From Gracilaria domingensis (lineage: Eukaryota; Rhodophyta; Florideophyceae; Gracilariales; Gracilariaceae), in NCBI GenBank assembly GCA_022539475.1, contig VCMS01000041.1, forward strand, positions 62,001 through 126,000: a stretch of 64,000 nucleotides of DNA, read 5' to 3'. A program made the position numbers and the translations under genes. This document shows positions 1 to 60,700 of the stretch, piece by piece (the first letter of the stretch is position 1; each line of letters opens with the position of its first letter). The notes beneath the pieces are model-generated. The model was given only the letters and a program-made list of their open reading frames with translations, had not been told where the DNA came from and did not search any database.

Positions 1-2034
1 ATCCAATCTGTACATTAGAAACGTTAGTGTCCAAAATTTATGGTTTATCCAGCTTCGGTAATGCCAGTACGGAAGGATTCAGTAGTATATACTTCAAGGT
101 TTGAAATGATTCGTACTGTTTGTCCGTCAGGCAGTCATATTCCGGTGGCGTACCCTTCTTAAGCATTTCATTGAGAGGTGCTGCAATCTTCGAGAACCCT
201 TGGACAAACCTACGGTAGACGTTACAAAGCTCAAGGAAAGAGAGCAACTCTGTGTGAGTTCGGGATGGTTTTGCCAGTCGGATTGCGTCCGTAGTCCTCT
301 TGGCAACCTGAAGCTTCCCAGGGTGAACCAAATGGCCAAGATAATTCGCTGAGGCCTGGGAAAAGAAGCATTTTGGTAGCTTCAGAGTTATTCCAGCCTC
401 AAGGAGAATCCTCAGAATTGACCTCACATGGGTAAAATGTTCCCGAATGGTCTTCGAAAATATAATTACGTCATCTAGATAAACTAAGGCAAACTTCCAA
501 TTGACCTTAGATGGGATTATATCCATTTCCCGTTGGAAAGTCGCCTGTGCGTTCATCAAACCAAATGGCATCTGTGTGAAACGGAATAGTCCGTCATGGG
601 TTGTGAACGTCGTCAGGGGCTTTGCGTCGTCGTCCAATGGTATCGGCCAATAGCCCCAATTGGCATCCAGCGTGGTGAATACCGTTGCTTCGCCTAAAGA
701 ATCGAGACAATAATCCATTCTGGGAATCGGATATTTGTCCTGTTTGGTCATTGCGTTCAGCCTTCCGTAGTCTATGCAAAACCTTACTTACCTGTCCTTC
801 TTCGCTGCGAGAACGAAAGGACTTGCGCATTGGGATTCATGCGGTGGTGCTGGCTCGATGACGCTAGCCGTGCTCATCTTCGCCAGTTGCTCCCCTACGA
901 TCTCGCGTCCCTTAAGGCCTATACGGTACGGGTGTTTGTACGCCGGCTTAGCGTCATCCTTAAGGTCTATTTGATGTTCCGTAGCCCGAATCTTCCCCAA
1001 TTGGCCAGACCACACGGATTTAAAATCTCGGAGAAGCTCGATAACCTGTGGGAGGGACGATTTTAATTTCTCTCCAAAGTTTATCTGCCCCTCCCAAGTA
1101 TCGATGTCCTCGTCGTCATTGGGGGTGAGTTCATTCCATGAGGTTTCCGTGATAGCCATTGGAGCTTGTAGTGCAATACCAATGACAGTACCCTTTGGTA
1201 AGCGAAAAATGCGGTCCCGGAAGCTACTCATATTAACCAAGAAAAGAACCTTCGGTCTGCAGTCCATGATTCTATTGGCCATTAAGGAAAGATGACGCTG
1301 ATTCGTCCTCGGATGATTCTGAAGCGTCACAAGACCAGCGGTTTCGCAGTGAGCCAGAGCAGCAGTCTGCGTCATGGGCGGTATTCTTACCGCCCGTGAT
1401 AACCGAACCTTATTGGAAACGGTACTCTTCGCGAGTGGAGGGCGACGTGGGTCGGCGTCGGGACCAGATTTGGAACCGATAATCGCCACGAGACAGGTGC
1501 GGTAGAAGGAAACCTTCCGGAGACCGGGGTAAATTGCATTCAAGTATCGGTCGATAAAATACTTCCCAAGGAGACATTCGGCACCTAAGGTACGACAAAC
1601 AAGGAACCAAGTACGGACCCGAAGGTCGCCAATCTGTAAGCAGAGAGGAATGATTCCTTTAAAATCTATTGGTCGTTTTGACGCATCAGTTACCCTTGGA
1701 GCCCTTTTAACCTTCACCTCGTCCTCACAACTAGCCGGTAAAACCTTCGGATGGACCAAGTTTGGCTCTGGTCTACTTTCTAGGACGCTGGTAACGGCCC
1801 GTGACCTTGAGGCAGTTAAACCAATGGTGTGCCTTGCTTTGTAATTCTCCTTCCGTAGAATACATATTGGAGAATCCGCTTCGCTCTCCAGTTCGTCAAA
1901 TTATCGTGCCAAACGTCTGTCTTCCTTAGGTGGCATCGACGCTTGAGTATTCGAATGCTTCTGAAATTCCCTTGGACGAATTTCTTCACCTTCGTCGATG
2001 AGGCTAGATTCCTGAGAGGGGCGCCGCGCTTCAA
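1..2034 (-). pseudogene. pol: gypsy pol remnant: protease, RT
   Basis: Two main open stretches carry pol. The 788-1759 stretch holds the end of the protease and the N-terminal RT linker (IDLK, then YKHPYR). The 38-751 stretch holds the RT palm, including TLDAN, MPFGL and the catalytic YLDD box, followed by the thumb with GHLVHPGKL and the CNVYRRF motif. A single in-frame stop near 788 separates them, and another at about 38 precedes the start of RNase H, which continues off the window. The expected protease motif D-T/S-G is degraded: around 1760-1780 the reading is LESRPEPNLV, so the catalytic Asp appears replaced by Glu. The enzyme would be inactive as read. 1816-2034 is the gag-pol junction in a shifted frame. 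Confidence 0.85.
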
Positions 2035-2043
2035 GTCGCTCCT

Positions 2044-4560
2044 CTACGCGTTTTCCGACTGAGTTCTTCTACCGGTGGTGTACGTGTGACCACTGGCCTG
2101 CAGTTCTTCTGAAACATCTGTCGGGTGTTCTGAGGTACAATCATCTACTGGATTCGAAACTGCATTAACTGTTGGAGCCTTTACTGGCGTTTCCATTAGT
2201 GTGGCGAACCTCGACGTGCCAGGGGACGATGTATACCGCGGATCCTGACGGGTGAACATTACTTCGGATCGACGTGCTTAGTAGTTCTCGTCAAGGTCAT
2301 GAGTTTGTCCTTCGTTTTCTTCGGTAAGAACTTCATGCAATCGCATGGAGCAACCTTTGACAGGAAAATGTCGCAGGCCTGACAGGAGCGTTGGAAGACA
2401 TCCCTTCGAGGTTGGGTCGGAGAATAATTCGGTGTAGACTGTTCAGAAGGGGTTGTTATTCCAGTCGACGGTATGGAGGGCGCGCCTGAGGGAGCTGAAC
2501 CGAAAGAAACGGCAAGAACGTTTCCGTCGCTCTCGTATGAACCTGAGGCACTGCTTTCCGAACTCTGCACCACATGGGCCTGGGAGATTTTCCCCACAGG
2601 TGTCGTACTTCCCCTCGCCTCATAATCAGTTGACCGGCGGGATCCTAACTTCCCGGGGAGTTATATAGGTTTTTCCGTAGTCTTCGGCATAATTCACCAA
2701 CTGCTTATAGGAGAGGTTGGAATGGTCCATATGGCGATTTCGAACGTGCGGCTTAATTGCAGGCAGCAATGCAGCGTTGAAGTGCTGCTTCAGCCGATTC
2801 TTGGAGAACACATTACCGCCCCTATAGGCCTTTCTCCAAAGCTGGTAGGCGTAATATTTCTCGGTTACGTTCGAACCCTGCCTGTAGGATATGACTTCCT
2901 GATGGCGTCCATAATGACTTCGTCGGTCGCATATGTTTGCAGACGGTAGAGCGCAACCTCTGGATAAGACCTAAGCAGTTCTCGATCGGTTACATTGATG
3001 GGGTCCGTAGTTCCAGAGATCTTAGAAACCACATGGTCGTGCGCTTGCTCATGGAGAAGAAAGCTGAAAAAGATACAGAGCGACGCCCTCGCGGACGCCG
3101 TTCTAATCACAGGCCGTGCGGAACAGACTGAGAAACCTAAAGATAGAAATGGGATCGGATCCCGAAAACGTTTCTGCTATAGTTAGCTGCATCCATTTGG
3201 CCCACCTGGAGAGGCTAGGCGATACGTGCGGTGGTTCAATACTCTCTTGAAGAGTTCATTGGTTACTACTAGCGGTTTGAGGCGTCAAACAGCCGCTTCA
3301 TCCGTCTCTGAGCCACTGGAACTCGACAAATCTCCTATGAACCCCGGTTATGTCCGAAATATGGTCCATATGTGACCGAAATGTTGGCGTATAAGTCAAA
3401 GTTTGTGAGAACGCTTATCTCACCAAGATCTTTATTTCTGGTTTTTCAATGCGGCCAAATATGCGCTATATTTTGGCCATATTTTGATCAGATGCATGAA
3501 AACGAAAACTTCCTTATCTTGACTAGATATATGCTTTCACGAGTTTCCGACTTTTACGCCATCATTTCGGTCACATATCGGCCATATTTCGGCCATAACC
3601 GGAGTTCATAGGGATCCGAATCGGACTCGCTACCGCTGGAGTTCCTCCGGATTTTTCTCTGGTTCTTCGACTTTTTCCTTCTTCCACTTCTCTTCATCCT
3701 ACGGTCAGAACTTCTAGCTTCCAATGGCAGCTCTTCATCTCCAGGCTCTAAACCAATGGGTGCTCGCGGGCCCTGGGCCGTGGTATACCTCATGGGTAGC
3801 ACGGCCATTAGGCCATCCGGGCGAGGAACGTCTTTATTGTCCCCTGGACGTGCGCCAGATTGGTCTACCTGTGGTTGAAATCCTCGAGGGGCTGGCAAAG
3901 CAGATGTTCTCGGTGGTTCGCAAGAGTGTTGGCATACAGATAGAAATGAATTACTTTGCATTCCATCCACGGAGGGCGGCGGGCCTACCTGGCGAGTCAC
4001 CTCATGGCGGATACCTAAGGCATGCGAGTCGACGAAAGCGTCAGACTCGAGAATCTTTGGTAGGACACGTTCAGCTGGTTGGTCGGAGTGCTCCGCGAGA
4101 GCGACTGAGACTCGGAGATTCACAAGGGTTTTGAGTCGAGCGTTGAGCATCTCTCGAACCTTCGGGCTTAAGACATCGGCAAGTCCATCGGTAGTTACTG
4201 AACCAACGGTTTCCTGCGGTGCTGCTTGTGGTGTGTTGAGCTGCGAGCAGTACTCGTCGAGCCGTTCTCGGAGTCTTTAAGGCAAAGAGGCGTCAGGATT
4301 AATCCTCTCGAGATTATCCACTCATGTGAGGAGATTAACCTGTGGTTGCGACCGGGTACTTCGGCGGTCACTCACGTTGTTGCCAGAGGGTCCGGCGACA
4401 TCAGCGAGCGGTGGAGGAGTTCCAGTAGCTTGAGCCACGAGTGTACGAGGGTCTTCTTGCATGGGTTGATTGTTATCCATGATAGCGGCTGCTTGATATA
4501 CCAGTCCGTCGGTAGTCCGGATCTAATGGTAGAATTCCGGTAGTTCGTCTTTCCTAGAGG
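2044..4560 (-). pseudogene. gag: gypsy gag remnant (element 1), interrupted by a MITE
   Basis: Minus-strand fragments match in order the gag of the element at 41269-53346. The N-terminal part is at 3554-4150, with a basic KKSKNQRK stretch followed by a Ser/Asp-rich tract. The tract resumes on the far side of the MITE at 3338-3608. The capsid-like part lies at about 2865-3110, with LQTYATDEVIMDA matching LETYATDEVIQEA in the other element, and at 2626-2811. A Cys-rich tail at 2259-2597 (CQACDIFL...APCD) looks like a degraded zinc knuckle. Several frameshifts and stops are present. 4150-4560 is a further N-terminal leader region with no clean frame. Confidence 0.75.
3338..3608. mobile_element. 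fold-back MITE with ~90 bp inverted repeats, TA flanks
   Basis: The left end TGAACCCCGGTTATGTCCG and the right end read back as TGAACTCCGGTTATGGCCG, and the similarity continues for about 90 bp on each side (both arms carry TGACCGAAATG and ATGGCGTA). TA dinucleotides flank it at 3336-3337 and 3609-3610, as expected for Tc1/mariner-type insertions. It splits the Ser/Asp-rich part of the gag of element 1, so it inserted after that element did. No coding capacity. Confidence 0.85.
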
Positions 4561-4582
4561 TCGTTCTTCACTTCCGTGCGGA

Positions 4583-4601
4583 ATTCTAGGTCGGGAGACC
4601 A
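4583..4601 (-). promoter_or_regulatory. tRNA primer binding site of element 1
   Basis: On the minus strand, TGGTCTCCCGACCTAGAAT begins five bases inside the LTR. Its complement ends in ACCA and reads like a tRNA 3' end (T-loop side, acceptor stem, discriminator base, CCA). Element 2 has the same arrangement: a five-base spacer, then TGGTCTCC. The family therefore seems to prime from one tRNA type. The tRNA identity cannot be named from this. Confidence 0.8.
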
Positions 4602-4606
4602 GAAAA

Positions 4607-5031
4607 TGTATTATAGTGGCACGGGTTTATACCCACCGGAGGAACGGTCCGAAGGATGAGGAGCCAACTGCGAGACCACTGGTAAAGAGGTGCAATGGGC
4701 TGGCGCTATCGGTCGTGCCTACAGGAGACGGCGAGCGACATAGAGATGGCTTGGAACCTTAAGGTCTTTGGTACTTGCTAATCTATGGGGTCAGATAGTG
4801 GCCAAGGGGCCCCTTATTACCACAGGGGGGAGGAGCAGCTCGAACAGCCTACGTATCGGCCGCGAGGCGCCTCGACCTCGACCGTGGTGCACTGTAAGAC
4901 AGTCTACTAGATAAAAATTAGAGAACCATTGGGGGCCAAGCAAAGCACACGTATTCCACCTCTTTTACTTCAACACAGCACCCAGTAATGACAGGCCACC
5001 AGGAGTCTATCAAAAGGCTCAATATACTACA
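4607..5031 (-). repeat. 5' LTR of element 1
   Basis: Read on the minus strand, the segment begins TGTAGTATATTGAGCC at 5031 and ends ACTATAATACA at 4607. These termini match the element 2 LTR (TGTARTATAGCTCGGCC ... TTATACCACA). It is 425 bp long and keeps the AT-rich patch found mid-LTR in the other family members. The inner edge is fixed by the primer binding site five bases away. The outer edge rests on the TGTAGTATA match, so it is slightly less certain. Confidence 0.8.
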
Positions 5032-5138
5032 AAGATTGATCACGACTTCGAATTGAAGGATGTCATGAGATCATCGAGTGAGACTTAGACAGGCGCGATT
5101 TGGTCATTTGAAACGTCAGCGTACGAAGCGAATCTATG

Positions 5139-23145: not shown

Positions 23146-23267
23146 CGCCCATTGTTAACTGGCTACGAGCGATATCGGGGGAAGATATCGATATTTCCCC
23201 CCAAAACTAGGAAGTCGTATTTCTAAACAGCTTCCAAGGTTGCTTCTAGCCTGTTGACAAGCGTGTT

Positions 23268-41237: not shown

Positions 41238-41268
41238 TGTGGTATAAAACCAGGCGATGGTAGCAGTG
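41238..41268 (-). repeat. 3' end of the left-arm solo LTR, cut by element 2
   Basis: TGTGGTATAAAACCAGGCG is the reverse complement of the end of the LTR at 60139-60700. The LTR resumes at 53347 after the element 2 insertion. 41264-41268 is one copy of the CAGTG target duplication. Confidence 0.85.
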
Positions 41269-41838
41269 TGTAATATAGCTCGGCCGTATCAACGGGGGCT
41301 CTCCAAGAAAAAGTGGTGATGTCACTGGCTCTCGGGTACGTGTGTCTACTGTATCACGTGGGACGATAAGCGCAGGCTTGGCAAGGACTAATTAGTTTAT
41401 TTTCATTAATTTAGAGTTAATATTTACTAAGTAGTGTAGATATGTGGCCGGGGTGGTGGGCCACAAATGCACCTCCCGGTGGCCCACGTGGCATTAGGCC
41501 TGTGAGAGCCGGAAGGGCCGCTCGGGTGTACTCAACCCCTAGACGCCAATCTACCACACCAAATGGAACATCAAGCACCAACTAGGCTGCTTCGACACCA
41601 GTTCGGTTCCACAGTCACCAATTGGTAAGTCTAGTAGTCCTCGATTACTTTTGCTGACCTCGAGGGTGATATGTGCCTGCCGCACACCAGTGTAGGCCTA
41701 TTTACCACTTGGTCACCGTGCAATATAGGCAACGGCGGGTGCTGCCGACCTACTAGGTGTCACGCGTTTCATTCCTCCGCAGGGTCGAGCCCACGCAGGG
41801 CTCCCCACTCACAGCTCGCACCGATCGGTTATACCACA
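41269..41838 (+). repeat. 5' LTR of element 2
   Basis: 570 bp, from TGTAATATAGCTCGGCCG to GATCGGTTATACCACA. It contains an AT-rich patch (ACTAATTAGTTTATTTTC) and two exact ACCANNTGGT palindromes. Confidence 0.95.
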
Positions 41839-41843
41839 TATTT

Positions 41844-41859
41844 TGGTCTCCTGACTAAG
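41844..41859 (+). promoter_or_regulatory. tRNA primer binding site of element 2
   Basis: TGGTCTCCTGACTAAG begins five bases after the LTR. It differs at a few positions from the site of element 1 (TGGTCTCCCGACCTAG), consistent with the same primer tRNA plus decay. Confidence 0.8.
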
Positions 41860-41970
41860 AATTTGTGGATTACCAAGTGGTTTTGGAAAGGGAGTATTTG
41901 GAAGTCACGAGATACCCGAGTGGTTTGATTCCCGTTTCCGAAGCTATTTATTCCGACACCAGTTACCTAA

Positions 41971-44237
41971 ATGGAGAAACGGGGCGTGCGTCACCCAAAA
42001 AGGGCGCCGAGCGCTCCACCAAGTGGCCACCCCATACGGGGTTCAGTGTCCTATCCGGTGTTGGATAACCCGGAGGATCTGATTCGGAAGGAACGCCCAC
42101 CGAGGGGGAAGAAGGTAGACCGAGAGGCTGGAGGCCCCTCGACCCTTCCCCGGGCTGACCAAGTGGACGGAGGAGCAGGCTCCGCAATGGAGGAGCCCGC
42201 TTCTGTAACAATCCCAGTGGAAGACCAAATGGAGGTGCCAGTCGGGCGGCGACTGACCCTGGACGACGTCACCCGAGTGGTAGTTGATCGAGCCTCCCAG
42301 GAGGTCCTCGACAAGGTACCCGTGGTGGTGTTACAGTACCTAGAGAACGAGGTACGAGGACACATCGACCGATTGGTTATGCTGGCTCTGCAGCAGCAGG
42401 GGGCTAAGCTTCAACCTGAGATGGTGGCCCAGGCCGCGCTCATGAAGCAAGCTCCCCTGCCGGCAGTGGAAGCCACCAAACCACTTGGTATTCTCCATCC
42501 TAACCTTCCTACACAACCGGTTTGTGAAGGATTTATCTACCGCATCGGGAAAGGGGCAGAGCCTCCTGGCATGGAGGGCCCGAGGTACGTATACCTCCCC
42601 CAACCCACTGGTGTAGCTCCGTCAGGACCAAGTGGTGGAGACCCTGATGGAGATTCGTCAAGCTCAGGAGACGAGCGTCGACGTAAACCAAATGGTAAGA
42701 AAAAGAAAACCAAAAGGGGAAAGAGAAAGAGTCGCCGGTCGAACTCGGACTGTTCGTCCTCAGGCACCGATTCGGATTCGTCAGGAGACGACAACCATAA
42801 AGGTTCACGACGCAAGAGAAAGGATTCTCACCAGAAGAAAGGAAAGAATACCCGCAAGGGTAAGACCGAAAGTTACAATGATTCGGACTCAACTGCCGAC
42901 GAAGAGACTGACCTGGAGGTGCTTACACCGCTTAACGATCTATCACAAAAGCGGTTGACTATCGTACCTATAGTTTGGAGAACACGCAGGCTAAGTATAC
43001 CAAAGAGGGAGCTCAGAAGATAACGAAGCATCACAGGAAGCTTCGTTTCCAACTGGGTGAGACTCGCTTTAGCGGGAATGACCCTATTGCGATCATTGAT
43101 TTCCTTCAAAGGTTCAAGATCGCTTGTGACCAGAATGGGTTTTCAGAGGCAGCGACCATGTGGTTGTTCCAATTCTACCTAACTGGTAAAGCTGGAGCGT
43201 TGCTCCATAGCCGCCTCCAAGGAAACACCATGGCAGTGGACGAAGACTAAACGGAAATGTTGACGACATACCCACAGGTGGTTAACTTTCTACTGGAAAC
43301 CTACGCGACCGATGAGGTAATTCAGGAGGCGTACGCAGAGGTGCTTGCGTACCGCCAGCGCGCGGGACAAACCGAATTGGAATTCGCTCGCTCCCTGTGG
43401 GCATTAGCCTCCCGCTGTGGAAGTGACTTTACTACCAAGAGGTTGAAATCGATATACGCCGACAACGTGGCGAAATCTATCCGATCACAGGTTCGTAACT
43501 ACCTAGCGACCAACCTCACGGTCGACTACAACGCACTAGCCAGACATGCACAGGGACTAGGCGACACCGTCCGGTCAGGGGCCATGAAAGACTCCGCACC
43601 ACTTGTCAAACCATCGAAGGAGAAAAGAAAAACCAGGCGGTCAGTGTTTGACGTAGAGGAAGAAGAGACCACTACGGATGAAGCATCCACACAATACGCC
43701 TCGCAGGGTCACCCAGTCCACTTGGTGCATGCAGAACCGACAACTCGATCGCACGGTAACACCCCCTGGTCCAGCTCGCTATACAGCGAGCCACCCTCGG
43801 GGCAAACCTCAGCTCCACCATCACAGGTATCCGTAGCGGTCAGTCCGGTGCTAGTGGTGCCATTCAACCAATATGGTGATAGAGAACCGCCACCGCAGCA
43901 ACGGAGTGTAGCACCGGCTGGGGGTCGCCCCCCATCACGCGCGCCGTCGCTCGCGATGAAGGACCCCACAACCGGTAATCTCCTATGTTGGTTCTGTTTA
44001 TCGCCTCACCACTTGGCAACAGCTTGCCCGAGTGTGGCTCCGCAGAACAGGAACGCTCTCCTGACTGCTCGCCAGCAGAACCATCAGGATATATTTGGAC
44101 CTACAGCGCGGAGCGCAGGCACGGGACACGCAAATGCGCGCCCCAAAGCAGCCACACCTCATCAGGTACACATCATTACGGAGCAGGACCAAACGGAGCC
44201 CGCCCCGCATGCGGAAAACGCCGAACAGTTGGGATAG
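41971..44237 (+). pseudogene. gag: gypsy gag (element 2), frameshifted and with one stop
   Basis: The N-terminal part (41971-42950) is a proline-rich leader, then a helical stretch (TLDDVTRVVVDRASQEVLDK) and a hinge of basic and Ser/Asp runs (GKKKKTKRGKRKSRR). The frame then shifts. The capsid region (about 42950-43600) has YRTYSLENTQAKYTKEGAQK, RFSGNDPIAIIDF and LLETYATDEVIQEA. A zinc knuckle, CWFCLSPHHLATAC (CX2CX4HX4C), lies at about 43986-44028. There is a TAA at about 43248, where CAA (Gln) would fit. Gag ends at 44237 and pol overlaps it in the -1 frame, the usual relation for frameshift expression of pol. The structural role is assembly of the retroelement particle. Confidence 0.85.
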
Positions 44238-46515
44238 ATGCCTCCCCCAACTGTCCGAATGTGGAAGGCCTTCCAGAACCAAGTGGTGCAAGTATGGACA
44301 ATTACCCATTGGTTACAGGGGAGGAGAGCCTCATGGATGGCACCGAACCCATATGCTTCCTCAAGCATAGTAACTGTCACCGTCACCCTCGGGTTACGTC
44401 CAACGACTTTGTACCATGCGTCACTGTCCTGGACACTGGGGCAGGACCTAATCTGGTTAATGCCAAACTACTAACTAACAGACAACTTAATAAGCTTCAG
44501 CCATGTACATTAACTAACCCTCTGATTGACGCCAATAACAGACCATTAACCGTCATGGGCGCGCTTACCATAATGGTATTGATTGACACCATGAAGGTCC
44601 GAGTCCGTTTCATAGTCGTGAACCAACTGGCAACAGACTGTATCCTCGGGACGACCTTTCTAGACCAGCACGTCAGGGCGATTTTCCCAGGCTCTGAGAC
44701 GGTGGTGTTCCACAATGGTCACCGTATCGCCATCGTTGGTAACCACAAGGGTGCCTCTCCCACGGAGAAAAGCATTCTCCACCAACCCGTTCCGGAAAAT
44801 ACACTCTCGAACAAGGTGCGACTGGCAAAAGCGGTAACGATACCGCCTATGAACCACTTGGTAGTGAAGGTGACATGCCAACGACCTGGTTTGTTATCTA
44901 TTCAGAACCACTCACGGTTGGCCGAACGACATATAACATTAATTGCAAATGGTATAGTCGATAACATACCGACAAAACCGTTTCAGGTCTACCTGAGTAA
45001 CTCCAGCAACCGCCCGGTTAAGTTGCCAAAGCACACCGCAATTGGTCTGGCCCTATCTGCTCCTCGCACGATCTTTACGATCAAACCACAATGGTCCCAC
45101 GAGGTCGTGGACGCTAAGGGCGGGGGAAGCAGTGCTAATTCGCCGCAAACAGACCATATGGTCCAGCGACTAGCTGAGCGAGAAGACCCGAAACTGCAGC
45201 TCGACCCAGCGCCGAATTGGAAAACGGAAGTGAATATAAGACTTGAAGGGGAAGAGCTCAGAGCCCGGAACCTCGGACTCCTGGAGCCATTCAGTACCAT
45301 GTGGTCTGCTAAGCTGGGAGCGATTAAGGCCACCCGGCATAGGATTGACCTCAAACCGGACTCCCGTCCCATCCACCAACAGCCATACCGCGCGGGGCAT
45401 AAGGCCCGTGAGGTAGAGCTGGAGAAGGTGGAGCGGATGTTCCGCGAGGGGGTTATAGAGCCGACAAACTCGGAATGGGCTAGCCCTGTAGTGCTAGTCC
45501 AAAAACGAGGAGAGACCCGTATGAGGTTTTGTATTGACTACAGAAAACTCAACGTCGTAACGGTGAGGGACTCGTATCCCATCCCGAGGATGGATGAATG
45601 CATCAACTCCCTAGGAGATGCGAACATATTCACCACATTGGACGCGAACTGCGGCTATTTGCAGATCGAAATACCAGAGGGTGATCGTTATAAGACTGCG
45701 TTTATATGCCACGCAGGCCTGTATCGCTTCTTACGTATGCCGTTCGGTTTGCGAAACGCCCGAGCTACCTTCCAAAGATCATTAGACATCATACTGTCTA
45801 AGGTGAAGAGGAAAACCGCATTGGTATATATAGATGATGTAGTCATCTACTCGCGATCCATTGAGGAACACTTCTCACACGTCCAAGTGGTATTGTGGTT
45901 GCTACAGGAGGCAGGCGTGACCCTCAAACTACGAAAGTGTATGTTCTTCAACCAAGAGGTAGAGTATCTAGGGCATACGATAAGCCCCGGTAAACTCTAA
46001 GTGGCCAAACGGAATATCCGAGCGGTACAGGAAGCGAAGCTCCCTACGTCGCAGACGGATATACGATCCTTTAGAGGTCTATGTAACGTCTAACGGAGGT
46101 TCATTAAGGGTTTTGCAAAGATAGCTGCACCGCTGAACCGGAGTTTGCAGAAGGAGCAACCCACACACTTCGACCACTTGGAAGAAGACGAGGTAGAGGC
46201 TTTCCACACATTGAAAGCAGCGCTTCTCTCCCCGCCGGTACTGGCACTGCCCAAAACGGGACTCCCGTATACCCTGGACACAGACCCGTCGGACGCCCAA
46301 ATAGGTTGCTGCCTCATGCACGAACAGGAGGACGGCACGCTCGCACCAATTTGTTACTGGAGTAGAGCTCTGAACCAAGCAAAGCAGAACTATACCGTAA
46401 CGGAGAAAGAATGCCTAGCGGTTATTTGGAGTATGCTCATGCTACGTCCTTACCTATATGGTGTGCGCTCCACGCTTCGAACGGATCATGACTCCTTGGG
46501 GTGGATACTAGGTTT
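43985..46515 (+). pseudogene. pol: gypsy pol, first part: protease, RT, start of RNase H
   Basis: The frame is open from 43985 to 46000. The protease active site reads VLDTGAGPNLV (about 44430-44460), with both residues of the triad intact. The RT has RHRIDLK, FCIDYRKLN, IPRMDECINSLGD, FTTLDANCGY, MPFGLRNA and the catalytic YIDDVVIYS box (about 45825-45851). A TAA at 45998-46000 interrupts the thumb (GKL-stop-VAK), where element 1 has Gln, so it is a C-to-T nonsense change. Another stop lies in the CNV-x-RRF motif at about 46090. RNase H begins with LDTDPSDAQIGC (about 46275) and is cut at 46515 by a MITE. Confidence 0.9.
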
Positions 46516-46880
46516 CCCTGGTAATCATTTGGGTGGTATATGGACTATCTGTGCCTCACAAAAGGGTTCAAGTGTCTACTATGTGGCTGTTATGGGCGAA
46601 AGACTGATGTACGCCGTATGTGTGTCGTATCTATGGCGTGCGCATGGTTGGTTTATGGATGGTATTCGCACACAACAGGCATAGTGCAAATCTCAAAAAA
46701 TTAAGTTTTTTTCTTCCGTTACATCTGCCATCATCCGTCATGCACCAGGCACTCATACGGCACATATGCGACGCAGATACGACTTACATACGACATTTTG
46801 CCAAACATGGCACAAAGTAGGCACCTGAACCCCCATATCAGACATGAAGCGTACATACACTACCCAAATGTTCACCTGGG
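46516..46880. mobile_element. fold-back MITE in the RNase H domain
   Basis: The left end CCCTGGTAATCATTTGGGTG and the right end, read back, CCCAGGTGAACATTTGGGTA begin inverted repeats that stay similar for about 150 bp each, so nearly the whole 365 bp folds back. TTT flanks both sides (46513-46515 and 46881-46883). Deleting the insert plus one TTT brings the RNase H frame back together between WILG and ADASGR. The 3 bp duplication is compatible with a PIF/Harbinger-type origin, but no source transposase can be assigned. Confidence 0.9.
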
Positions 46881-48769
46881 TTTGGCGGACGCATCGGGTC
46901 GTCTGGCCCGATGGCGCCTGAGACTCTCGGAGTTTGACTATGATGTGCAGTACCGCCTCGAGGTCAAGCACCGAGTGGCGGATGCAATGTCCCGGTTGAA
47001 TACCGAAGGATTGGACACTGACCCAGTGGACGACGACATTCCATCTTTTACAATAAAATCAGCGAACCACGAGGTCAAGGACGTTCTGAAGGGATACTGG
47101 CATGATGAAAGTACGTACCAAGTAATAGTGGAGACTCTTCTCCCTGTGGAAGAGGGAGAACACCCTCCAATGACCCGTGAAAAATTTCTACACGAATAGT
47201 CGGCCGATAGGTTGTGCAAAACGCTCGCGGACGTACTAGGAAAGAAGGATTCTCAGTTCGACGTCGACCACAATGGGTACCTCTTTAGACGCTCACCTCT
47301 AGACCGAGCTCTCCAGAAGGTTGTACCTGAGTCATTAAGACAAAGGATGTTGTATCTGTCACATAACCCACGGCTTTCGGGACACCCGGAGGCCACGCGG
47401 TTGTACTATACCCTTCGGAGGCAATCCTACTGGCCGCACACGGCTAACGACGTATATACCTATGTGGCTCATTGCAATTCGTGCATTAAAACCGGAGGTC
47501 ATGTGAGGAAGCACTGGAAGTACCTGAAGTTATTCCCGGCGGCGGGGCCCCTGGAATTCGTCGCGATCGACATACTGGGGCCCCTACCAAAGACCTCGGA
47601 GGGTTTTCGATTTGCAGTAGTCATAACCGATAGGTTCACGAAGCTCACCAGGGCCATACCCCTGAAGAACCAAACGGCAACGACACTGGCGACAGCCTTC
47701 TTGGAGAACTGGGTCTACCCATACGGTGCTCCTATGTACCTACTGACCGATAATGGTTCGAACTTAGCTTCTAAGTTCTTTGAGGCGGTTTGCACCATGC
47801 TAGGGATCAAGCACTACTTTACAACGGCCTATCATCCGCAAACAAACGACCAAGTGGAACGGTTCAATAAGACCCTAGTGTCACGCCTACGGCACTACGT
47901 CGAAGAGCACCAAGCCACATGTTCAAGCCACATGGTCGGAATTTGTCCAACCATTGACATATGCGTACAACCTCCAGGTCCACAGGGTCACCTAAACAAC
48001 CCCGTTTGACCTCGTACTTTCACGAACACCACACGGCATTATCGTCCAGCCCGCACCCGACCGCTCGGAAGCGGCAGGAACACTCACACCTGCGAAGATC
48101 AAGCGAAACATACTCCGGAAGATACGCGCCGCTTTGGCTGCTGCTAAAGTCAAAATGACAGCAGCCCAAGAACGGTATAAAGCAGATTATGACCGAACGG
48201 TGAGCAGAGTAACTAAAGTGGTAGCAGGAGACATGGTCTTCATCGACGTACCACCAAAAGGTAAGCGACCGACCCCAGCGGACATGGAGGAAGACATCCG
48301 CATTGAGGAGGATATCAATTATAAACTACTACCCAAGTCGACGGGACCATATAAGGTGATTCGCTCCGATGAGCATACCGCTACGGTCATAATGGATGGC
48401 TTGGAGAACACCGTCTACATCGAAAGGATTGCCAAGGCCGCACAAACGACGGCACCGCATACACAACCAATAGGTGAGCCAACTCAGAGGAAAGAGCAAA
48501 GGGGAGGAACGTCTCCCATAGCCCCTCCTCTGACGAGTCGGCCGAGCGGTCAACCTTCCATCAGAGCCGTAACGGCTGACTCTACTACCCAAGCGGCACA
48601 GGAGATCGAGCCACGGCGAGACCAACAGGTCACACCACCCACGGTAAGCCACGCACCCCACGACCAAACGGAAGAGTCTTACCCTCAAGTAGACACTCAA
48701 GAGTGCGCTATTGACACCATTGTAGGTCACGAACACACCACAAAGGGTATCCGCTACAGGGTAGGATAG
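46881..48769 (+). pseudogene. pol: gypsy pol, second part: RNase H end and integrase
   Basis: After the MITE, RNase H ends with FDYDVQYRLEVKHRVADAMS. A TAG at 47197-47199 interrupts the linker. The integrase N-terminal zinc finger is HNPRLSGHPEATR...HCNSCIK (HHCC pattern, about 47360-47490). The core has AIDILGPLP (first Asp), LLTDNGSNL (second Asp) and NDQVERFNKTL (Glu), so the DDE triad is intact. A frameshift follows at about 47925. The C-terminal part (48134-48769) has GDMVFIDVP, YKLLPKSTGPYKVI and a long hydrophilic tail. It would insert the cDNA into the genome; as read it is broken. Confidence 0.9.
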
Positions 48770-48902
48770 TACGGATGGTCGCCAGAGTACGACTCTATGG
48801 AACCAGCTGGTCATATCCCTAACAACTTCATCATCCGATACTGGCGCAAACAGGGGCGAACGCCCCCACCAACTGGTACTGCTTCGCGTGGTACGCGTCG
48901 CT

Positions 48903-48919
48903 AAGGAGCGGGGGGGGGG
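48903..48919 (+). promoter_or_regulatory. purine tract just after pol (possible former or second PPT)
   Basis: AAGGAGCGGGGGGGGGG, one C in 17, lies 134 bp after the pol stop. That is where the 3' polypurine tract would lie if the extra 3.8 kb were absent. It may be a second plus-strand priming site or a vestige. Confidence 0.4.
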
Positions 48920-49056
48920 TTGTCTAAGCAGTTGAACGCCAAACGCCACATGGAATGCTAACTAACCTAACAGGAAAATGGAACCAGATCAAAACGCACA
49001 ACGCAAGACATTTTATTAGTCCAAGACGGGCCCACAAGCGATAACCACGAGGTAAC

Positions 49057-51396
49057 CTAGGAGGCCTTGGAAGACCCATGGCCACGTCCGCGCCCACGGG
49101 AGGTCCCGCAAGAGGAAGCGAAACCCCCACGACCAGAGGACACCGATATAGGTCCGGCGGAGCTTCCGCCCACGCCCCTAGCCGCGCTCGCTGGCGCACC
49201 ATCACTTGGTAATGGAGCAGAAGCAGCAGGCCTCGCGGGGTTACCGCTGCTAACTACCGGCAAGGTGTTCGCAGGACCAGTGGGTGGATGGAAGGAAGGC
49301 GGCAAGCTAGTCGGAGGAATACCACCAGAGTCCGGTTTAGAAGCAAGACCGCTGGACGGCCCTGCACCAAAGGCCAGACCAGGAGGCGCTCCAACTCCCA
49401 AAGGTCCAGGACCAGCAGGTGTCATCCGAGCGCTGGACGACGACGGAAGCGGAGCCGAACGGAAACCAGTTGGGAAACCAGTTGGTGCTCCCACGCCAGT
49501 ACTTGCTGGAGAAACAGAAACGTTATGAGGACCAAGCGGTGTACGGAAGGGTGCCGAAGGATTGGCACCAGGAGGTCCACCAGGCGGTTGATACGTATCA
49601 AAGCCACCAAAGCCTCCCATCGGGGTCGCAGTCTGTGCGACGCAGCAGCGTACGGGTTGAAACTTTCTACAGGGGGTCGATGTAAGGGCGCGTGACCTTT
49701 CACGAGGTTGCTCAACTGACCAACATAGGCTGTCACCTCACGGTAGAGATTGCGATGAAAGTAGTCGCGGAACTGCCACAGCTCACTAGTGCGCCGCTCG
49801 TGGTGAGCGACCACCGGGAGCAAGTTGGTGAGAGTATCCACAACGGTGAGGATGTCATTTGGACCAGGACGGTTGAGGTGCACCATCGAGGCGTGGTTGA
49901 GACCAGCCAGGGGGCTTCGTATCGCGCCACTATCACCACCAGGGGGTACCGGGTTCACCGGAAGCCACTGGAAACCAACCCGAAGAGGCCCCTGGGCGGC
50001 CCGTTCGGGAGAATGAGCAGCTGCCTGAGAGTTTTCTGGAGCATTTGGGACAGGCGCAGCCACGCTGGTCGGAGGAGTGGCCTGTACGAGCGCCGACGGA
50101 GGCAACGCGGGGGACTCATAGTTCTCGGCAGCCACCATTACGGTATCGTCATTACCAAATGGGTCTTCGCCAGCCATGTGCTGCTGTTGGAGAGGCACGA
50201 TGGTATGAACCTCCGAGTCGTAGACATTCCAACCCTGTTCAGGCGCCCAACTGTGGTTACTTACCGCCGTGAGTTAGCTGTCCAATTGCTGCGCCGTATA
50301 CTTGGTGCCCTCCACGATCTTGGAGAGCCCCATGGCACGAATGTCGCCGACCACATCGTTGGGAATGTTGAAGATGCGACCAACTGGTTGAGTTCTGCTG
50401 ATCCCAACAGACTTGTCACGGCAGCGCGTGTCCCAAGTCACACCTTCCACGGACGCCTGGAGGGCGAGGATAGCCACCATAACGGTCCACTCGCTGCGCG
50501 CGACCGACCAAACGGCATATGCGTTGTTCCTCTCGAGGAAGATGCTACTAGCAAAGTACGCAAGTACCAGCGGGGTCGGCAGTTACAGCCCCTGACATAC
50601 TTCAAAGTGGTCCCACCAAGAAGGTCGATTGACATACCATGCCCGGCGGTTCTGGTCGCTCTATGACCAATACTCAACGTTGTGGAACAGGGACATTGTC
50701 CGCGTACGGTTGTTACGGTGACGAACACGGCTCTCGGCCATCGCGTTGGTCTCCAGTGTAGCACGTAGCAGGCTCGTCCAAGCCGTGAAAGATATCTACC
50801 AAACGGCGGAAGTAGTGGACCTCCTTATCGCAGCGGATGAAGGGGAGATCCGACGGTATGGCCACGGGGATGTAGTATAGAAACTTCGTGTGCCGCTGCC
50901 GTGCGTGGAAACACTGTTTTCGACCGAACCGGCTCTGCTTCTCGCCCTTGCGCGGTAGAGGAGGCGCCATAGGCACCGCTTCCAACCGGCGACAATTCCA
51001 ACGGGCAATCGTAGTATACTGCGTGAGACCCATGTGGCAGAACCGCATGGGACAGAAGAAGGAACTGATGTGGAAAGGCCAGTTCCCCAGAGCGACCAAT
51101 TCGGTAGAGATATCGGCAAAGCGTGCACCATAGTGGGCATGCGGCTCCCCGTGCGTCCTGTTAAGGTCATGATGATTCAGCTGTTGAGCTTCCACCGTAC
51201 CGGCGACCGCAGGAGGGTTAACGTTGCTCGGACCGGCGACGGCTGCATAAGGATCATACCCATTGCCACCGTAAGGGTCTTGACGAGAGCGTGTACTCGA
51301 CCGCGTGTTAGGCTTGAAGATGCCACTGCCACGGCCACGCGCTACCCCAGCTGTGGTAGGGCGCGGCCGTGGCAGTGGCATCTTCAAGCCTAACAC
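49057..51396 (-). pseudogene. antisense ORF set inside element 2, unknown protein
   Basis: Minus-strand frames at 50713-51396 (227 codons), 50274-50480, 49422-50198 (258 codons) and 49057-49620 (187 codons) follow one another and read like one protein of about 700 residues broken by two or three frameshifts. The first part starts MLGLKMPLPRPR and has HYFRRLVDIFHGLDEP. The middle has IFNIPNDVVGDIRAMGLSKI, LTNLLPVVAHHERRT and FRDYFHRNLYREVTAYVGQL. The end is Gly/Pro/Ser-rich and closes with SRGRGRGHGSSKAS, an RG-type basic tail. No domain is recognised. Position and orientation match the antisense extra ORFs known from some large plant Ty3/gypsy elements. A nucleic-acid-binding role is only a guess. 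Confidence 0.5.
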
Positions 51397-51398
51397 GC
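51303..51398. repeat. perfect 34 bp inverted repeat (hairpin) at the antisense ORF start
   Basis: 51303-51336 and 51365-51398 are exact reverse complements (outer end GCGTGTTAGGCTTGAAGATG), separated by 28 bp that can pair further (CTACCCCAGCTGTGGTAG). The arm encodes the start of the antisense protein. Because of the symmetry, the plus strand also opens with MLGLKMPLPRPR. Confidence 0.95.
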
Positions 51399-51412
51399 GC
51401 CCAGGCGGAAAT

Positions 51413-51600
51413 ACTGGAGTGCTTCTGTCATTAAGATTTCATTCACGTTTCAAGAAGAATCCTTTAGGAACTCTGTTAATTGAAGAAAACGATAACATAT
51501 TGAATTTCTATTGAGAGATGGCAACCCAAAAAATTTGACATGTAATTGCCATTGAAAAGATATTGAAGTACTAAGAAAAAATTGGCACATATAAGAATCG
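51413..51600 (+). repeat. second copy of the ~200 bp repeat seen at 9390-9530
   Basis: CTGGAGTGCTTCTGTCATTAAGATTTCATTC and what follows match the reverse complement of 9350-9530 (CTGGAGTGCGTCTATCATTAAG in that copy). The frame encodes GVLLSLRFHSRFKKNPLG, then ENDNILNFY. It lies between two antisense ORFs of element 2 and may be an insertion. Confidence 0.7.
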
Positions 51601-52341
51601 GATTGAAAAGCTAATTACAGATAGTTCCGCCTCGGCAGGGGTCTTACCAGACATCCTCGACCGGGTGACAGCAGTTTCGCGGATCGAGCGGTTGGCCTCC
51701 GGTGAGGGGGAAACTTCAGAAGCGGAATACCCCTTTATAGGGTCGTAGTGCGGCTCCTCCAGTACCAAGTGGTTGGGTACCACGAGGGTATCAGCGTCCG
51801 ATGGAAAGGACACTGGTGTACCGGTCGTGGAGGGCAGACAGGGCTGTGAAGAATCTACCACGCGGTAACTCGGTTGAAACGGCGCCGTCCCACCACCGCG
51901 GTCTATCACATCGGGAAGGGCGGGAGCGACACTCACTTCAGCACCACCTTCACGGCGTTCGAACGTCATTGACCACCCCGTTGGGGAAGCTGGTCGATCA
52001 CCCATGGGGTATGAAAGGAGCGAGGCGGAGCAGAGCGTGCCACGGAGGATACCAACCGCGAGGGAGAAACCGGAGCGAAGGTAAGACAGACGGCAGAAAA
52101 CGAAAACATTACCAATTGGGACGACTGAACGAAACCTGAAAGGCCACAGAGGAAGGACAAGCCGCTCGAGCGAGCTGACACACAGTGAGAAGGACCAGAT
52201 TGATGCGCCGATTAGGCGGGTTCCGTGAACAAGAGAGGCCACAACCACCCCAGAGGGAGCCTCAGGGACAAAAGAGGACCAAGCGGGTAACGAATGATAG
52301 GAGCGATACCACGAGGGGGCGGCGTGCCGATCAGTTGACAA
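51571..52341 (-). CDS. second antisense ORF in element 2, unknown
   Basis: 256 codons on the minus strand between the hairpin and the 3' LTR. Residues about 50-110 are hydrophobic (LCVSSLERLVLPLWPFRF; LAVGILRGTLCSASLLSY), and the C-terminal half is polar with Pro/Ser. It could be an upstream exon or domain of the same antisense gene, since the ORF at 50713-51396 follows it after the 200 bp repeat. No known family. A plus-strand shadow frame is also open here, so coding status is uncertain. Confidence 0.35.
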   Translation of the reverse strand: MSTDRHAAPSWYRSYHSLPAWSSFVPEAPSGVVVASLVHGTRLIGASIWSFSLCVSSLERLVLPLWPFRFRSVVPIGNVFVFCRLSYLRSGFSLAVGILRGTLCSASLLSYPMGDRPASPTGWSMTFERREGGAEVSVAPALPDVIDRGGGTAPFQPSYRVVDSSQPCLPSTTGTPVSFPSDADTLVVPNHLVLEEPHYDPIKGYSASEVSPSPEANRSIRETAVTRSRMSGKTPAEAELSVISFSIRFLYVPIFS

Positions 52342-52760
52342 CCGCGAACCCCACCGACGGGAAGCACGAGACCAAATGGTAAGCCGGGACTAACCCGCCC
52401 AGGGAGAGGACGGGTAGGCGGAGGTGAGACGAAGGGCTCCTCCAGTAGGAGCCAAAGGGGTGAAGACAACCACGTGGTACCGGGCGCTCGACAGGATCAG
52501 CTTGAATGGTCGCGTTTCGCGGTTTGGCCTTCCAATACCACAAGGACGGTAAGGGACGATCGCACACACCGCACACCGCACGAGGGGCCACTGCCGCGCG
52601 AGTAATTGCGCTGCAGTGCATGTTGAGAACCGCGTCAAACGCCGCGCCATATTCGCGTCATCGCGAGACGCGCCGTGCGCCAGGCGATGTGCGCCGACGA
52701 CCGTTTGGTGAAAAGGCGGCAAACGCCGTGAGGACTCTACAGCCACGGGGCGTGCCTGTC

Positions 52761-52773
52761 GGTAGGAGGGGGG
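52761..52773 (+). promoter_or_regulatory. 3' polypurine tract of element 2
   Basis: GGTAGGAGGGGGG ends two bases before the 3' LTR, the expected place for plus-strand priming. Confidence 0.8.
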
Positions 52774-52775
52774 TC

Positions 52776-53346
52776 TGTAGTATAGCTCGGCCGGATCAAC
52801 GGGGGCTCTTTGAGACCAAGTGGTGATATCACGGGCTTTCGGGTACGTGTGTATACTGTACCACGTGGGACGATAAGCGCAGGCTTGGCAAGGACTAATT
52901 AGTTTATTTTCATTAATTTAGAATCAATATTTACTAGATAGTGTAGAAATGTGGCCGGGGTGGTGCACCACAAATGCACCTCCCGGTGGCCCACGTGGCA
53001 CTAGGCCCGTGAGAGCCGGAGGGGCGCTCGAGTGTACTAAACCCCCGAGACGCCAACCTCCCACACCAAATGGTAAAGTCAAGCACCAACTAGGCTAATT
53101 CGACACCAGTTCGGTTCTACAGTCACCAATTGGTAAGTCTAGTAGTCCTCGATTAGTTTTGCTGACCTCGAGGGTGATACGTGCCTGCCGCACACCAGTG
53201 CAGGCGTACTTACCACTTGGTCACCGTGCACTACAGGCAACGGCGGGTGCTGCCCACCTACTAGGTGTCACGCGTTTCATTCCTCCGCAGGGTCGAGCCC
53301 ACGCAGGGCTCCCCACTCACAGCTCGCACCGATCGGTTATACAACA
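52776..53346 (+). repeat. 3' LTR of element 2
   Basis: 571 bp, TGTAGTATAGCTCGGCCG to GATCGGTTATACAACA. It carries four exact ACCANNTGGT palindromes against two in the 5' LTR, so some were lost or gained since insertion. Confidence 0.95.
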
Positions 53347-53892
53347 CAGTGGCTGTGAATTGGTAACCAACTCGGTTCTAGGGAGCGCCTTGGGGTGCTC
53401 AACCTAAGAGGAGAGGATGTGAGATCGGCCTGTAAGGTGTGGCAGCACCAGCCACTGGAGGGTGCAATGCGGACGGCGCGCTGACTATAACCATCTGGTA
53501 GAGTGCGATGTATAGCGCTCACGGTCCGGTATCACTTAATAATACTACACTAACCACTTGGTTGACTGTAGAAACCTTATGGTCAAGATCTAGCGTAGTA
53601 GGTGCTTGACTTTACCATTATGGTGCGAGGGGCTTCCACCCCCAGTATATGGTGTGGTGGGAGCCCCGGCACGTCGTGGGAAAATAGCCTCGTGTGCCAC
53701 GGGAGGTGCGGCCGAGGTGCGGCACCTCTCCCCCGTGCCCTGTCGAACTATTCTAAAATAAAGGCTACAAATTAAAATTAAAATTACAAGTTAGTCCTCA
53801 ATGGTGATTGCCACCTGTCATTCTTGTCCACCGTGTGGTTTGATCTCCATTACCGACATTGGTCTCCTTGTACTATACGACGTTCCGGTGTT
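53347..53892 (-). repeat. main part of left-arm solo LTR (continues 41238-41268)
   Basis: This is the reverse complement of 60139-60684, nearly identical. It ends TACTATACGACG, one base off the TACTATACGACA expected from the right arm. The first five bases repeat the CAGTG target site of element 2. Confidence 0.9.
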
Positions 53893-54005
53893 GCCCATGT
53901 TTGACATTTTGTCGCTTTGATCCTATCTCGTTGTACATCACTTGCCAACAAGGCTAAAAGCCGATGGTCTTGTGTATTCGTGCATGATCAAATGTTGCAG
54001 CTATC

Positions 54006-54410
54006 ATGTTTGTTCATAACAATATCTTCTTACATGCGAGGCCACTCCTGCCCTCGTCACCAAAGCTACCCCGTATGCCTTCACCATCTTCTTCTAAAAT
54101 CTTCGCCACGATGTTGACTGCGAAAGAAGTACTGGCTCACGTTACGGACGATGACACCGAACGATCCGATGTTCCGACCGCAAGGTCGACTTTCGTTATT
54201 GAATACGAAGCGAAGGAGGTCACGACGGATTCCATGAAAGACGGAGAGCTCGCGGCGCTCGCAGAGAAAGATGAAGAGGCAGCCAAAGAACGTGTTGAAG
54301 CACAGTTGTTGGCATGCAAAGACGCGTTGCACGACTTCCTGCTTAAGCGTGGAATCAACTTGGAGGAACTAAAAGAGATTTTTGAGGATACGCTTGAGCA
54401 TTTATTGTAA
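54006..54410 (+). CDS. 134-residue ORF, left-arm copy, unknown
   Basis: MFVHNNIFLHARPLLPSS starts an ORF whose C-terminal 90 residues are acidic and helical (LAALAEKDEEAAKERVEAQL), ending FLLKRGINLEELKEIFED. A likely alternative start is MPSPSSSKIFATMLTAKEV at 54075. The right-arm copy at 59611-60015 differs at only two codons I can see (G/E and T/M). It starts 114 bp from the outer (start) end of the solo LTR and reads away from it. No family is recognised. It may be a small coiled-coil protein or a passenger of the repeat. Confidence 0.5.
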   Translation: MFVHNNIFLHARPLLPSSPKLPRMPSPSSSKIFATMLTAKEVLAHVTDDDTERSDVPTARSTFVIEYEAKEVTTDSMKDGELAALAEKDEEAAKERVEAQLLACKDALHDFLLKRGINLEELKEIFEDTLEHLL

Positions 54411-54619
54411 GGTATTGGTGTTGGTCTCGCTTTGTTCATGATGTGCTTGAGATCGCCTTTTCGTTCGTTGACCCCTCGTCTGGTTCATAACGCGGTTCAG
54501 GCTATCCTTTCAGGCTGACTTACATTTTTCACCCCTGCACCTAGCCCTCTTGCCATGACGGGTCTGACTTGCATCCAGTAAGACCTAGCTTCTTTTCGCA
54601 TCCCGTTATGCACGTGCTC

Positions 54620-55070
54620 ATCGTGACGCCGTGGCGGCAGCGACGTTCCCTTGCAAGGCGGCGCGCTGTCAGCGACGCTTCATTGCGTGACGGCGCGGCG
54701 GCGGCGACGCTTTCTTCCGTGGCAACGCGGTGCTGCTCCAATTCGTCCCTGCGGCGTCGCGCAAGGGCGGCGCGACGCGCGCTCTAAGTCTTCTCTGCAG
54801 CGTCGCGCTCCGTGGCAATGCGGTGCCGCTCTAATTCGTCCCTGCGGCGTCGCGCAAGGGCGGCGCGACGCGCGCTCCAAGTCTTCTCTGCAGCGTCGCG
54901 CCAGCGCGGCGCGAAGCGCGTTACAATTCTTCTCTGCGGCGTTGCGCCAGCGTGGCGTGACGCGCGCTGTAATTCATCTCTGCGGCTTGGCGCCAGCGCG
55001 GCGCGATGGGCGCTCCAAGGCTTTTCGGCGTCGCCGCGTCAGCGCGGCGCGGCGGCGGTGACGAGGCGAG
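54620..55070. repeat. 46 bp GC-rich minisatellite, left-arm copy
   Basis: A unit close to TCTTCTCTGCGGCGTCGCGC + CAGCGCGGCGCGACGCGCGC + TCCAAT repeats at 46 bp intervals with substitutions and some shortened copies, about nine units. The many Arg/Ala-rich open frames here are by-products. The right arm has the matching array at 58930-59400. Confidence 0.9.
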
Positions 55071-58870: not shown

Positions 58871-58929
58871 GGGACACACCCGATTTTTCTTATATCTCCG
58901 AGAGAAGATAAAGGAAGCGCAGCGCGGAA

Positions 58930-59400: not shown

Positions 59401-59610
59401 TGAGCACGTGCATAACGGGATGCGAAAAGAAGCTAGGTCTTACTGGATGCAAGTCAGACCCGTCATGGCAAGAGGGCTAGGTGCAGCGGTGAAAAATGTA
59501 AGTCAGCCTGAAAGGATAGCCTGAACCGCGTTATGAACCAGACGAGGGGTCAACGAACGAAAAGGCGATCCCAAGCACATCATGAACAAAGCGAGACCAA
59601 CACCAATACC

Positions 59611-60015: not shown

Positions 60016-60138
60016 GATAGCTGCAACATTTGATCATGCACGAATACACAAGACCATCGGCTTTTAGCCTTGTTGGCAAGTGATGTACGACGAGATAGGA
60101 TCAAAGCGACAAAATGTCAAACATGGGCAACACCGGAA

Positions 60139-60700
60139 TGTCGTATAGTACAAGGAGACCAATGTCGGTAATGGAGATCAAACCACACGGTGGACAAGAA
60201 TGACAGGTGGCAATCACCATTGAGGACTAACTTGTAATTTTAATTTTAATTTGTAGCCTTTATTTTAGAATAGTTCGACAGGGCACGGGGGAGAGGTGCC
60301 GCACCTCGGCCGCACCTCCCGTGGCACACGAGGCTATTTTCCCACGACGTGCCGGGGCTCCCACCACACCATATACTGGGGGTGGAAGCCCCTCGCACCA
60401 TAATGGTAAAGTCAAGCACCTACTACGCTAGATCTTGACCATAAGGTTTCTACAGTCAACCAAGTGGTTAGTGTAGTATTATTAAGTGATACCGGACCGT
60501 GAGCGCTATACATCGCACTCTACCAGATGGTTATAGTCAGCGCGCCGTCCGCATTGCACCCTCCAGTGGCTGGTGCTGCCACACCTTACAGGCCGATCTC
60601 ACATCCTCTCCTCTTAGGTTGAGCACCCCAAGGCGCTCCCTAGAACCGAGTTGGTAACCAATCTACAGCCACTGCTACCACCGCCTGGTTTTATACCACA
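60139..60700 (+). repeat. solo LTR, right-arm copy, related to element 2 LTR
   Basis: 562 bp, from TGTCGTATAGTACAAGG to CCTGGTTTTATACCACA. Mid-LTR segments align with the element 2 LTR (ATGGTAAAGTCAAGCACC in both). CGGAA precedes it and CCGAA follows, an imperfect 5 bp target duplication. No internal region is attached. Because both arms hold it at the same place, it was present before the inverted repeat formed. Confidence 0.85.

Follow-up and report, generated by a model that had tools for sequence, protein, structure and literature searches.

Introduction

The closest described counterpart of the system reported here is that of the VANC proteins, which are encoded by the VANDAL elements of Arabidopsis, a group of Mutator-like DNA transposons. 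According to the portion of the published account on which we draw, a short motif is dense in the elements' own copies and differs between related families; the motif of VANC21, YAGTATTAY, is non-palindromic, lies mainly in non-coding DNA in one orientation, and has been spread by tandem repeats (PMC5735166). Here we describe a comparable array in a 64-kb stretch of the genome of the red alga Gracilaria domingensis (contig C41, positions 62001-126000, hereafter the window; the assembly comprises 77.9 Mb in 680 contigs). An annotated G. domingensis protein, FGB62_103g013, matches C103:61901-62467 of this assembly with 100% identity over 189 residues. The window holds a Ty3/gypsy long terminal repeat (LTR) retrotransposon at 41269-53346, along which the palindromic 10-mer ACCANNTGGT is scattered, together with an extra gene in the form of an antisense open reading frame (aORF). 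The likeness to VANC and VANDAL, as far as that portion of the account goes, lies in the dense short motif in own copies, its difference between related families and the extra element-encoded protein, while the host here is an LTR retrotransposon rather than a DNA transposon and, unlike the VANC21 motif, the Gracilaria sites are palindromic, fall in gag, pol, aORF and LTRs, and have unrelated flanks (PMC5735166). No domain common to VANC and the aORFs was found in Pfam scans of the aORFs.

Plants and one fungal element are already known to have ORFs in antisense orientation between pol and the 3' LTR, whose function is stated to be unknown (PMC7264820, PMC11963269), and those of Retand carry TRP28, a predicted DNA-binding domain (PMC11963269). 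In the portions of these accounts used here, Retand (TRP28), Grande gene23 and RIRE2 resemble the Gracilaria elements in the position of the aORF, its antisense orientation and its conservation across families; the Gracilaria elements differ in possessing a chromodomain, Retand being of a non-chromovirus lineage, and in their family-specific palindromes, of which those portions make no mention (PMC7264820, PMC11963269). The Gracilaria aORF likewise stands in antisense between pol and the 3' LTR, with four of our 13 sampled elements lacking it, and TRP28 (PF04195) was not found in the Gracilaria aORFs by Pfam scans.

Two further kinds of scattered or clustered DNA word invite comparison. The Su(Hw) insulator of Drosophila gypsy is one local cluster of sites for a host protein within a Ty3/gypsy element; the Gracilaria sites, in contrast, run along the whole element and take family-specific forms. 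DNA uptake sequences and Chi are short bacterial words scattered genome-wide, under selection, through coding and non-coding DNA, whereas in Gracilaria the enrichment is in retrotransposon families, and each of these has a word of its own. A search of the titles and abstract openings of the open-licence literature, only partly aimed at the question, found no description of family-specific palindromes along retrotransposons.

A palindromic word runs through a Ty3/gypsy retrotransposon

The window contains 29 copies of the 10-mer ACCANNTGGT, compared with a mean of 0.89 and a maximum of 4 in 100 dinucleotide-preserving shuffles. The window element holds 22 of these copies, two stretches of a sister family (A2) hold four, and three lie elsewhere. 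A first reading made from the letters alone (the sequence-only reading) had listed 24 positions, all of which are present, with only 43156 off by one (43155 is correct). Its placing of all the sites in one retrotransposon stands for the 22 and fails for 53490 and 53553, which belong to an A2 LTR-like stretch outside 41269-53346. It had also found a single exact copy outside the composite, at 31735; further copies are present at 3028 and 8301, the former within a second element ("element 1", family H) that has its own related motif. When palindromes built from 256 four-base arms and nine spacers (2304 in all) were ranked by their copies in the element, ACCA-N2-TGGT came first with 22 and the runner-up had 5; it is also the most frequent 4+4 word there at spacers 0-4. 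The wider form ACC-N4-GGT has 57 sites in the element, and genome-wide the motif pattern has 4164 occurrences, compared with 1620 of its backward reading. The motif is thus confirmed as real, strong and unexpected, and it is larger in extent than the sequence-only reading had stated.

The element that bears it is a Ty3/gypsy LTR retrotransposon of the chromodomain type, with LTRs, a target duplication, reverse transcriptase (RT), RNase H and integrase in Ty3 order, and a chromodomain. Three of the four pol pieces of the window copy gave Pfam matches (RVT_1, RNase H, Integrase_H2C2 and rve); gag, without a Pfam match, was named from its position and by eye. The Pfam Chromo family scored above its cut-off in the pol of families D and F and below it in that of C (22.3 bits, cut-off 25.1); in family A the chromodomain was read by eye only, in the pol of the copy on contig C4, and Pfam Chromo was not detected in the broken window pol piece. 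The window copy is old, since its two LTRs are 92.2% identical (575 alignment columns). The copy on C4 (A_C4) is younger, with LTRs of 576 bases that are 99.8% identical, a gag of 755 residues, a pol of 1414 residues and an antisense frame of 908 residues between pol and the 3' LTR. It contains 29 ACCANNTGGT sites, and ACC-N4-GGT occurs in all of its regions (LTRs, gag, pol and aORF) at 3.1 to 8.7 per kb, the density being highest in the LTRs and lowest in and beyond the aORF.

The sequence-only reading had named a few internal duplications as an explanation that would undo it. The 12 bases on each side of the sites, compared by eye, are unrelated except between one LTR and the other and between the two arms of an inverted repeat; beyond these pairs the copies are therefore not internal duplications.

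Each family carries its own palindrome

The motif was followed through 13 Ty3 elements, none of which was dropped: two copies of family A, eight relatives of A by RT (A2_C260, B1_C342, B2_C28, C_C198, D_C142, E_C113, F_C14 and G_C17), H, and C393 and C182, these last drawn from the RVT_1-family (RT-only) list with C393 meant as a negative control. In every one of them the CC...GG half-sites of the strongest palindrome point inward. A uniform test, in which 40 shuffles of each element served as its background, gave -log10 P of 8.7 to 46.3 for the best palindrome in every one of the 13, the largest shuffle values being 3.7 to 7.5, whereas none of five controls (a pair of 5-kb Copia pieces and three slices of 11 kb from the window; -log10 P 2.5 to 3.7) had an outstanding palindrome. 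C393, the intended negative control, carried the motif and then the aORF, and C182, from the same RT-only list, carried both as well.

A scan of trinucleotide pairs at spacers 0-12 returned a palindrome as the top pair in all ten Ty3 elements scanned. The family forms, with observed and expected counts, are ACC-N4-GGT in A_C4 (64 vs 8.4), ACC-N5-GGT in B1 (65 vs 7.5), CCG-N4-CGG in C (48 vs 7.5), CCG-N2-CGG in D (49 vs 10.0) and E (79 vs 8.0), CCG-N7-CGG in F (36 vs 6.9) and G (35 vs 8.0), CC-N3-GG in H (108 vs 41.5; CCA-N1-TGG, 23 vs 4.3), and CC-N6-GG in C393 (121 vs 52.1) and C182 (113 vs 44.8). In the uniform test the best single word of H is CCT-N2-AGG, whose gap between CC and GG exceeds the CC-N3-GG peak by one base. 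The gap between CC and GG ranges from about 3 to 9 bp among families, and its peaks are multi-valued: in most families the next gap or two is also raised, in D CC-N5-GG is as frequent as CC-N4-GG, and F and G have broad peaks, from about 6 to 10. With the halves in reversed order (GG-N-CC) the counts hardly vary with the gap. Each site thus amounts to two CC/GG half-sites with a family-set gap and third base and little else, an arrangement that looks like the target of a dimer.

The expectation that related families carry different palindromes is borne out, gap and third base varying by family, and because the palindrome differs between families the reader of the sites must differ too. This bears on the explanation by which host DNA-binding proteins occupy the sites as activators, insulators or silencers. 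Arrays for a host factor do exist inside retrotransposons, as in gypsy with Su(Hw), and the CC...GG core common to all variants is as expected for targets of one host protein family, but the family-own gap and third base would demand a matching host protein for each family. A classical local insulator, one of the options of the sequence-only reading, is made less likely by the course of the sites through LTRs, gag, pol and aORF. Together with the conservation data below, this leaves a host reader unlikely.

Evidence for selection on the DNA

Synonymous-codon shuffles were applied to frames of at least 430 residues in seven elements (35 tests, 500 shuffles each). In 29 of the tests no shuffle reached the observed number of sites; observed and shuffled counts were, for example, 4 vs 0.2 in A gag, 10 vs 2.1 in A pol, 4 vs 0.4 in A aORF and 32 vs 5.2 in E pol. 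The claim that the protein is not the cause of the motif is upheld by these shuffles and by the presence of sites in LTRs, gag, pol and aORF alike, and the excess over shuffled and codon-preserving controls holds. The view that the words come from composition, from codon usage or from a small number of internal duplications could appeal to the six weak tests among the 35; it is contradicted by the dinucleotide- and codon-preserving shuffles, the near-flat reversed-order spectra and the unrelated flanks, and we regard it as scarcely credible. Protein sequence, composition and duplication are shown not to account for the sites in the 13 elements.

Conservation gives a similar picture. Half-sites are less diverged than spacers in every pair of elements compared, the ratio of half-site to spacer divergence running from about one third (sites of the window copy, A_win, vs A_C4) to about three quarters (F vs G, A vs B2). 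Between D and E the divergence is 0.18 and 0.28 in half-sites and 0.40 and 0.41 in spacers; between A_C4 and A_win it is 0.045 and 0.024 against 0.090 and 0.085. D and E share 24 site positions, compared with 0 to 1 for five control patterns whose counts are small, and many sites are unshared between families. In a silencing target one would not expect half-sites to be better conserved than spacers, and a host silencing target, another of the options of the sequence-only reading, is therefore less likely.

Palindromes can also pair in RNA, and the motif might act there, as small hairpins or in dimerisation of the genomic RNA. The sense strand is indeed lopsided in family A, but the form CCG-N2-CGG of D and E would need a two-base loop, no pairing beyond 10 bp was seen by eye in the flanks, and G-U-compatible single-mismatch sites are no commoner than their mirror forms (58 vs 64; hand sum over A_C4, A_win, B1 and B2). 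A role in RNA is accordingly very improbable. The codon shuffles, the conservation of half-sites over spacers and the lack of a G-U wobble excess together point to selection on double-stranded DNA.

An antisense gene accompanies the palindromes

An aORF, whole, cut or broken, was found by tblastn in nine of the 13 Ty3 elements; the two Copia pieces and the remainder of the window yielded no trace of it. It lies antisense after pol, with LTRs seen, in A, C, D and E, and after pol in G, C393 and C182, where the 3' LTR is unlocated. Its length is about 560-910 residues: the frame after pol has 790 residues in D, 817 in E, 610 in F/G and 556 in C393, and that of C has at least 683, the fetched piece cutting the frame. 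The first-sampled copies of D and E have one stop each. Of the 53 genome matches listed for the A aORF, with 50 of 1094 candidates scored, 24 are stop-free over residues 1-908, and for F/G about 46 of 150 matches listed, read by eye, keep the 610-residue frame stop-free in the matched stretch (871 candidates). The ratio of nonsynonymous to synonymous substitution rates is 0.22 to 0.27 in the four measurable comparisons, namely two A blocks, C17/C24 and A2/A, the last being near saturation. Both predicted structures (A and C) have, at low confidence, a middle part made of helices and, at the C-terminal end, one long helix; such a shape would suit, though not prove, a dimer.

Proteins resembling the C aORF were also observed: P0001 (43% identity over 59% of the family C protein), P0003 (63% over 24%) and P0004 (49% over 22%). 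The gene may therefore exist outside this assembly. P0004 begins with DnaA-like domains, and its source is perhaps a chimeric contig.

A candidate reader for the sites

The simplest source of the site reader would be the element itself. Among its products that of the aORF is the leading candidate: it is conserved, it is additional to the enzymes, and the majority of the elements examined have it, both families from the RT-only list included. We give an even chance to the proposal that an element-encoded dimeric DNA-binding protein, most likely the aORF product, recognizes the palindrome of its own family in the manner of VANC, to which it would be unrelated. The 10-mer would then be the family A form of a general inward CC...GG dimer mark in chromodomain-type Ty3/gypsy elements, and the protein would bind the elements of its own family from end to end. 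Such binding might in turn keep the chromatin of the element open or otherwise let it escape silencing, so that copies with more sites would spread better. The sites would build up by point mutation, whereas for the targets of VANC in VANDAL another route, tandem repeats, has been proposed. The sequence-only reading had suggested an array for a dimeric DNA-binding protein, of which the dimer-type sites selected at the DNA level are supported and the binding protein is putative. Its VANC-like anti-silencing option is the best of its three because the palindrome is family-specific and a conserved extra gene accompanies it in nine of the 13 elements; an anti-silencing effect would itself be an extension of the analogy. 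Anti-silencing of that kind may serve as the closest working model, with self-targeted integration and element-wide packing next. More tentatively, and a little short of an even chance, the whole may form a lineage-wide address system, in which a family-own word along the entire element is read only by the antisense-encoded protein and changes of spacing create families that do not cross-react.

The binder could instead be Gag or the integrase, which has a C-terminal chromodomain, and the arrays would then be tethers or targets that direct integration or assembly to copies of the own family. Every one of the 13 elements has pol frames or pieces, and this holds also for the four that lack an aORF (in H by eye), and the window element is nested in an LTR-like stretch of the motif-bearing sister family A2. 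One nested insertion gives no statistic, however, and the conserved extra gene would be left unexplained. The gap between CC and GG, moreover, takes odd and even values from about 3 to 9 bp while the single target duplication read is 5 bp, so the palindrome is not simply an integration footprint. We judge this alternative rather unlikely.

Several results weigh against an aORF-encoded reader or against the cleanness of the signal. By tblastn the aORF is undetected in B1, B2, H and F_C14, which carry the palindrome and could be served only by a protein acting in trans. In F_C14 (C14:354119-365075), which looks recently active because its LTRs are 99.9% identical, the stretch that holds the aORF in relatives does not match it and the palindrome continues through that stretch; it is perhaps a non-autonomous lineage. 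No DNA-binding domain was recognized in the aORFs: up to E 10 no Pfam family matched that of A or the part of that of D that was scanned, and up to E 0.1 none matched five aORFs (D, C, E, F/G and C393); the aORFs had no PDB sequence match, their models had no Foldseek match at E up to 0.001, and the AlphaFold models of the A and C aORFs are poor (mean predicted local distance difference test 38.7 and 44.0). The unclean codon-shuffle tests, six of 35, are those of D aORF (66 of 500 shuffles), the N3 form in C aORF (17), the generic forms in F gag (14 and 120), C gag (1) and G gag (1). G has an excess in reversed order, CGG-N5-CCG (25 vs 8.0). Conservation controls overlap the motif for B1/B2 and some A/A2 patterns (9-base spacer control), with small counts. 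Single-mismatch sites of family A are lopsided, 61 vs 29, where composition predicts 22.6 vs 13.3, so that the imbalance is partly expected from composition.

The window element and its surroundings

The coordinates of the element and its neighbors are collected in Table 1. The element was inserted into the A2 LTR-like stretch. This sequence is contained in an inverted repeat of 1462 bases (53347-54808 and 59213-60674; 99%, arms 4.4 kb apart), which is adjoined by 46-bp tandem units at 58927-59340. Element 1 (H) is a decayed Ty3 element of about 9.8 kb with its own CC-N3-GG palindrome. A 145-bp unit stands in three tandem copies at 22722-23156. Elsewhere in the assembly, several Copia-type RVT_2 matches lie near one another on each of the contigs C435, C447, C344, C354, C125, C426, C472 and C54, perhaps heterochromatic or centromeric regions.

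Table 1 Features of the motif-bearing element and its neighbors, in window positions
Feature	Position	Strand	Details
Target site duplication	41264..41268 (left); 53347-53351 (right)		CAGTG; direct reading
5' LTR	41269..41838	+	570 bases; TGT...ACA ends; ACCANNTGGT at 41617 and 41704
Exact ACCANNTGGT sites	41617..53221		22 sites of the window element
gag	41971..44237	+	broken; frames 41971-43023 and 43257-44237
pol	43985..48769	+	broken; RT, RNase H, integrase; protease match weak
aORF	49066..52005	-	broken; between pol and 3' LTR; tblastn blocks 52005-51628, 51354-50764, 50780-49632, 49674-49066
3' LTR	52776..53346	+	571 bases; ACCANNTGGT at 52815, 53065, 53125 and 53212
A2 LTR-like stretch at insertion site	53347..53881	-	91% to A2_C260 3' LTR, reverse
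Inverted second copy of A2 LTR-like stretch	60139..60674	+	sites 60459 and 60522
Element 1 (family H), part	1..5034	-	5' LTR ~4607-5034; extends past left window edge

Significance

VANDAL already provides the general case of a transposon that uses a private DNA word to recognize its own kind; what is new here is the class of element, the type of site and the spread of the sites. The DNA signal names a candidate target for the antisense ORF of each family. If the proposed reading is true, these elements would be a second case of transposons that recognize their own kind by a private word, in another element class and in red algae, and the function of the antisense ORFs in these LTR retrotransposons would be to read the family's own word. 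The coding DNA of these elements would then be under a selection unrelated to the protein that it encodes, which would affect measures of selection on retroelement genes.

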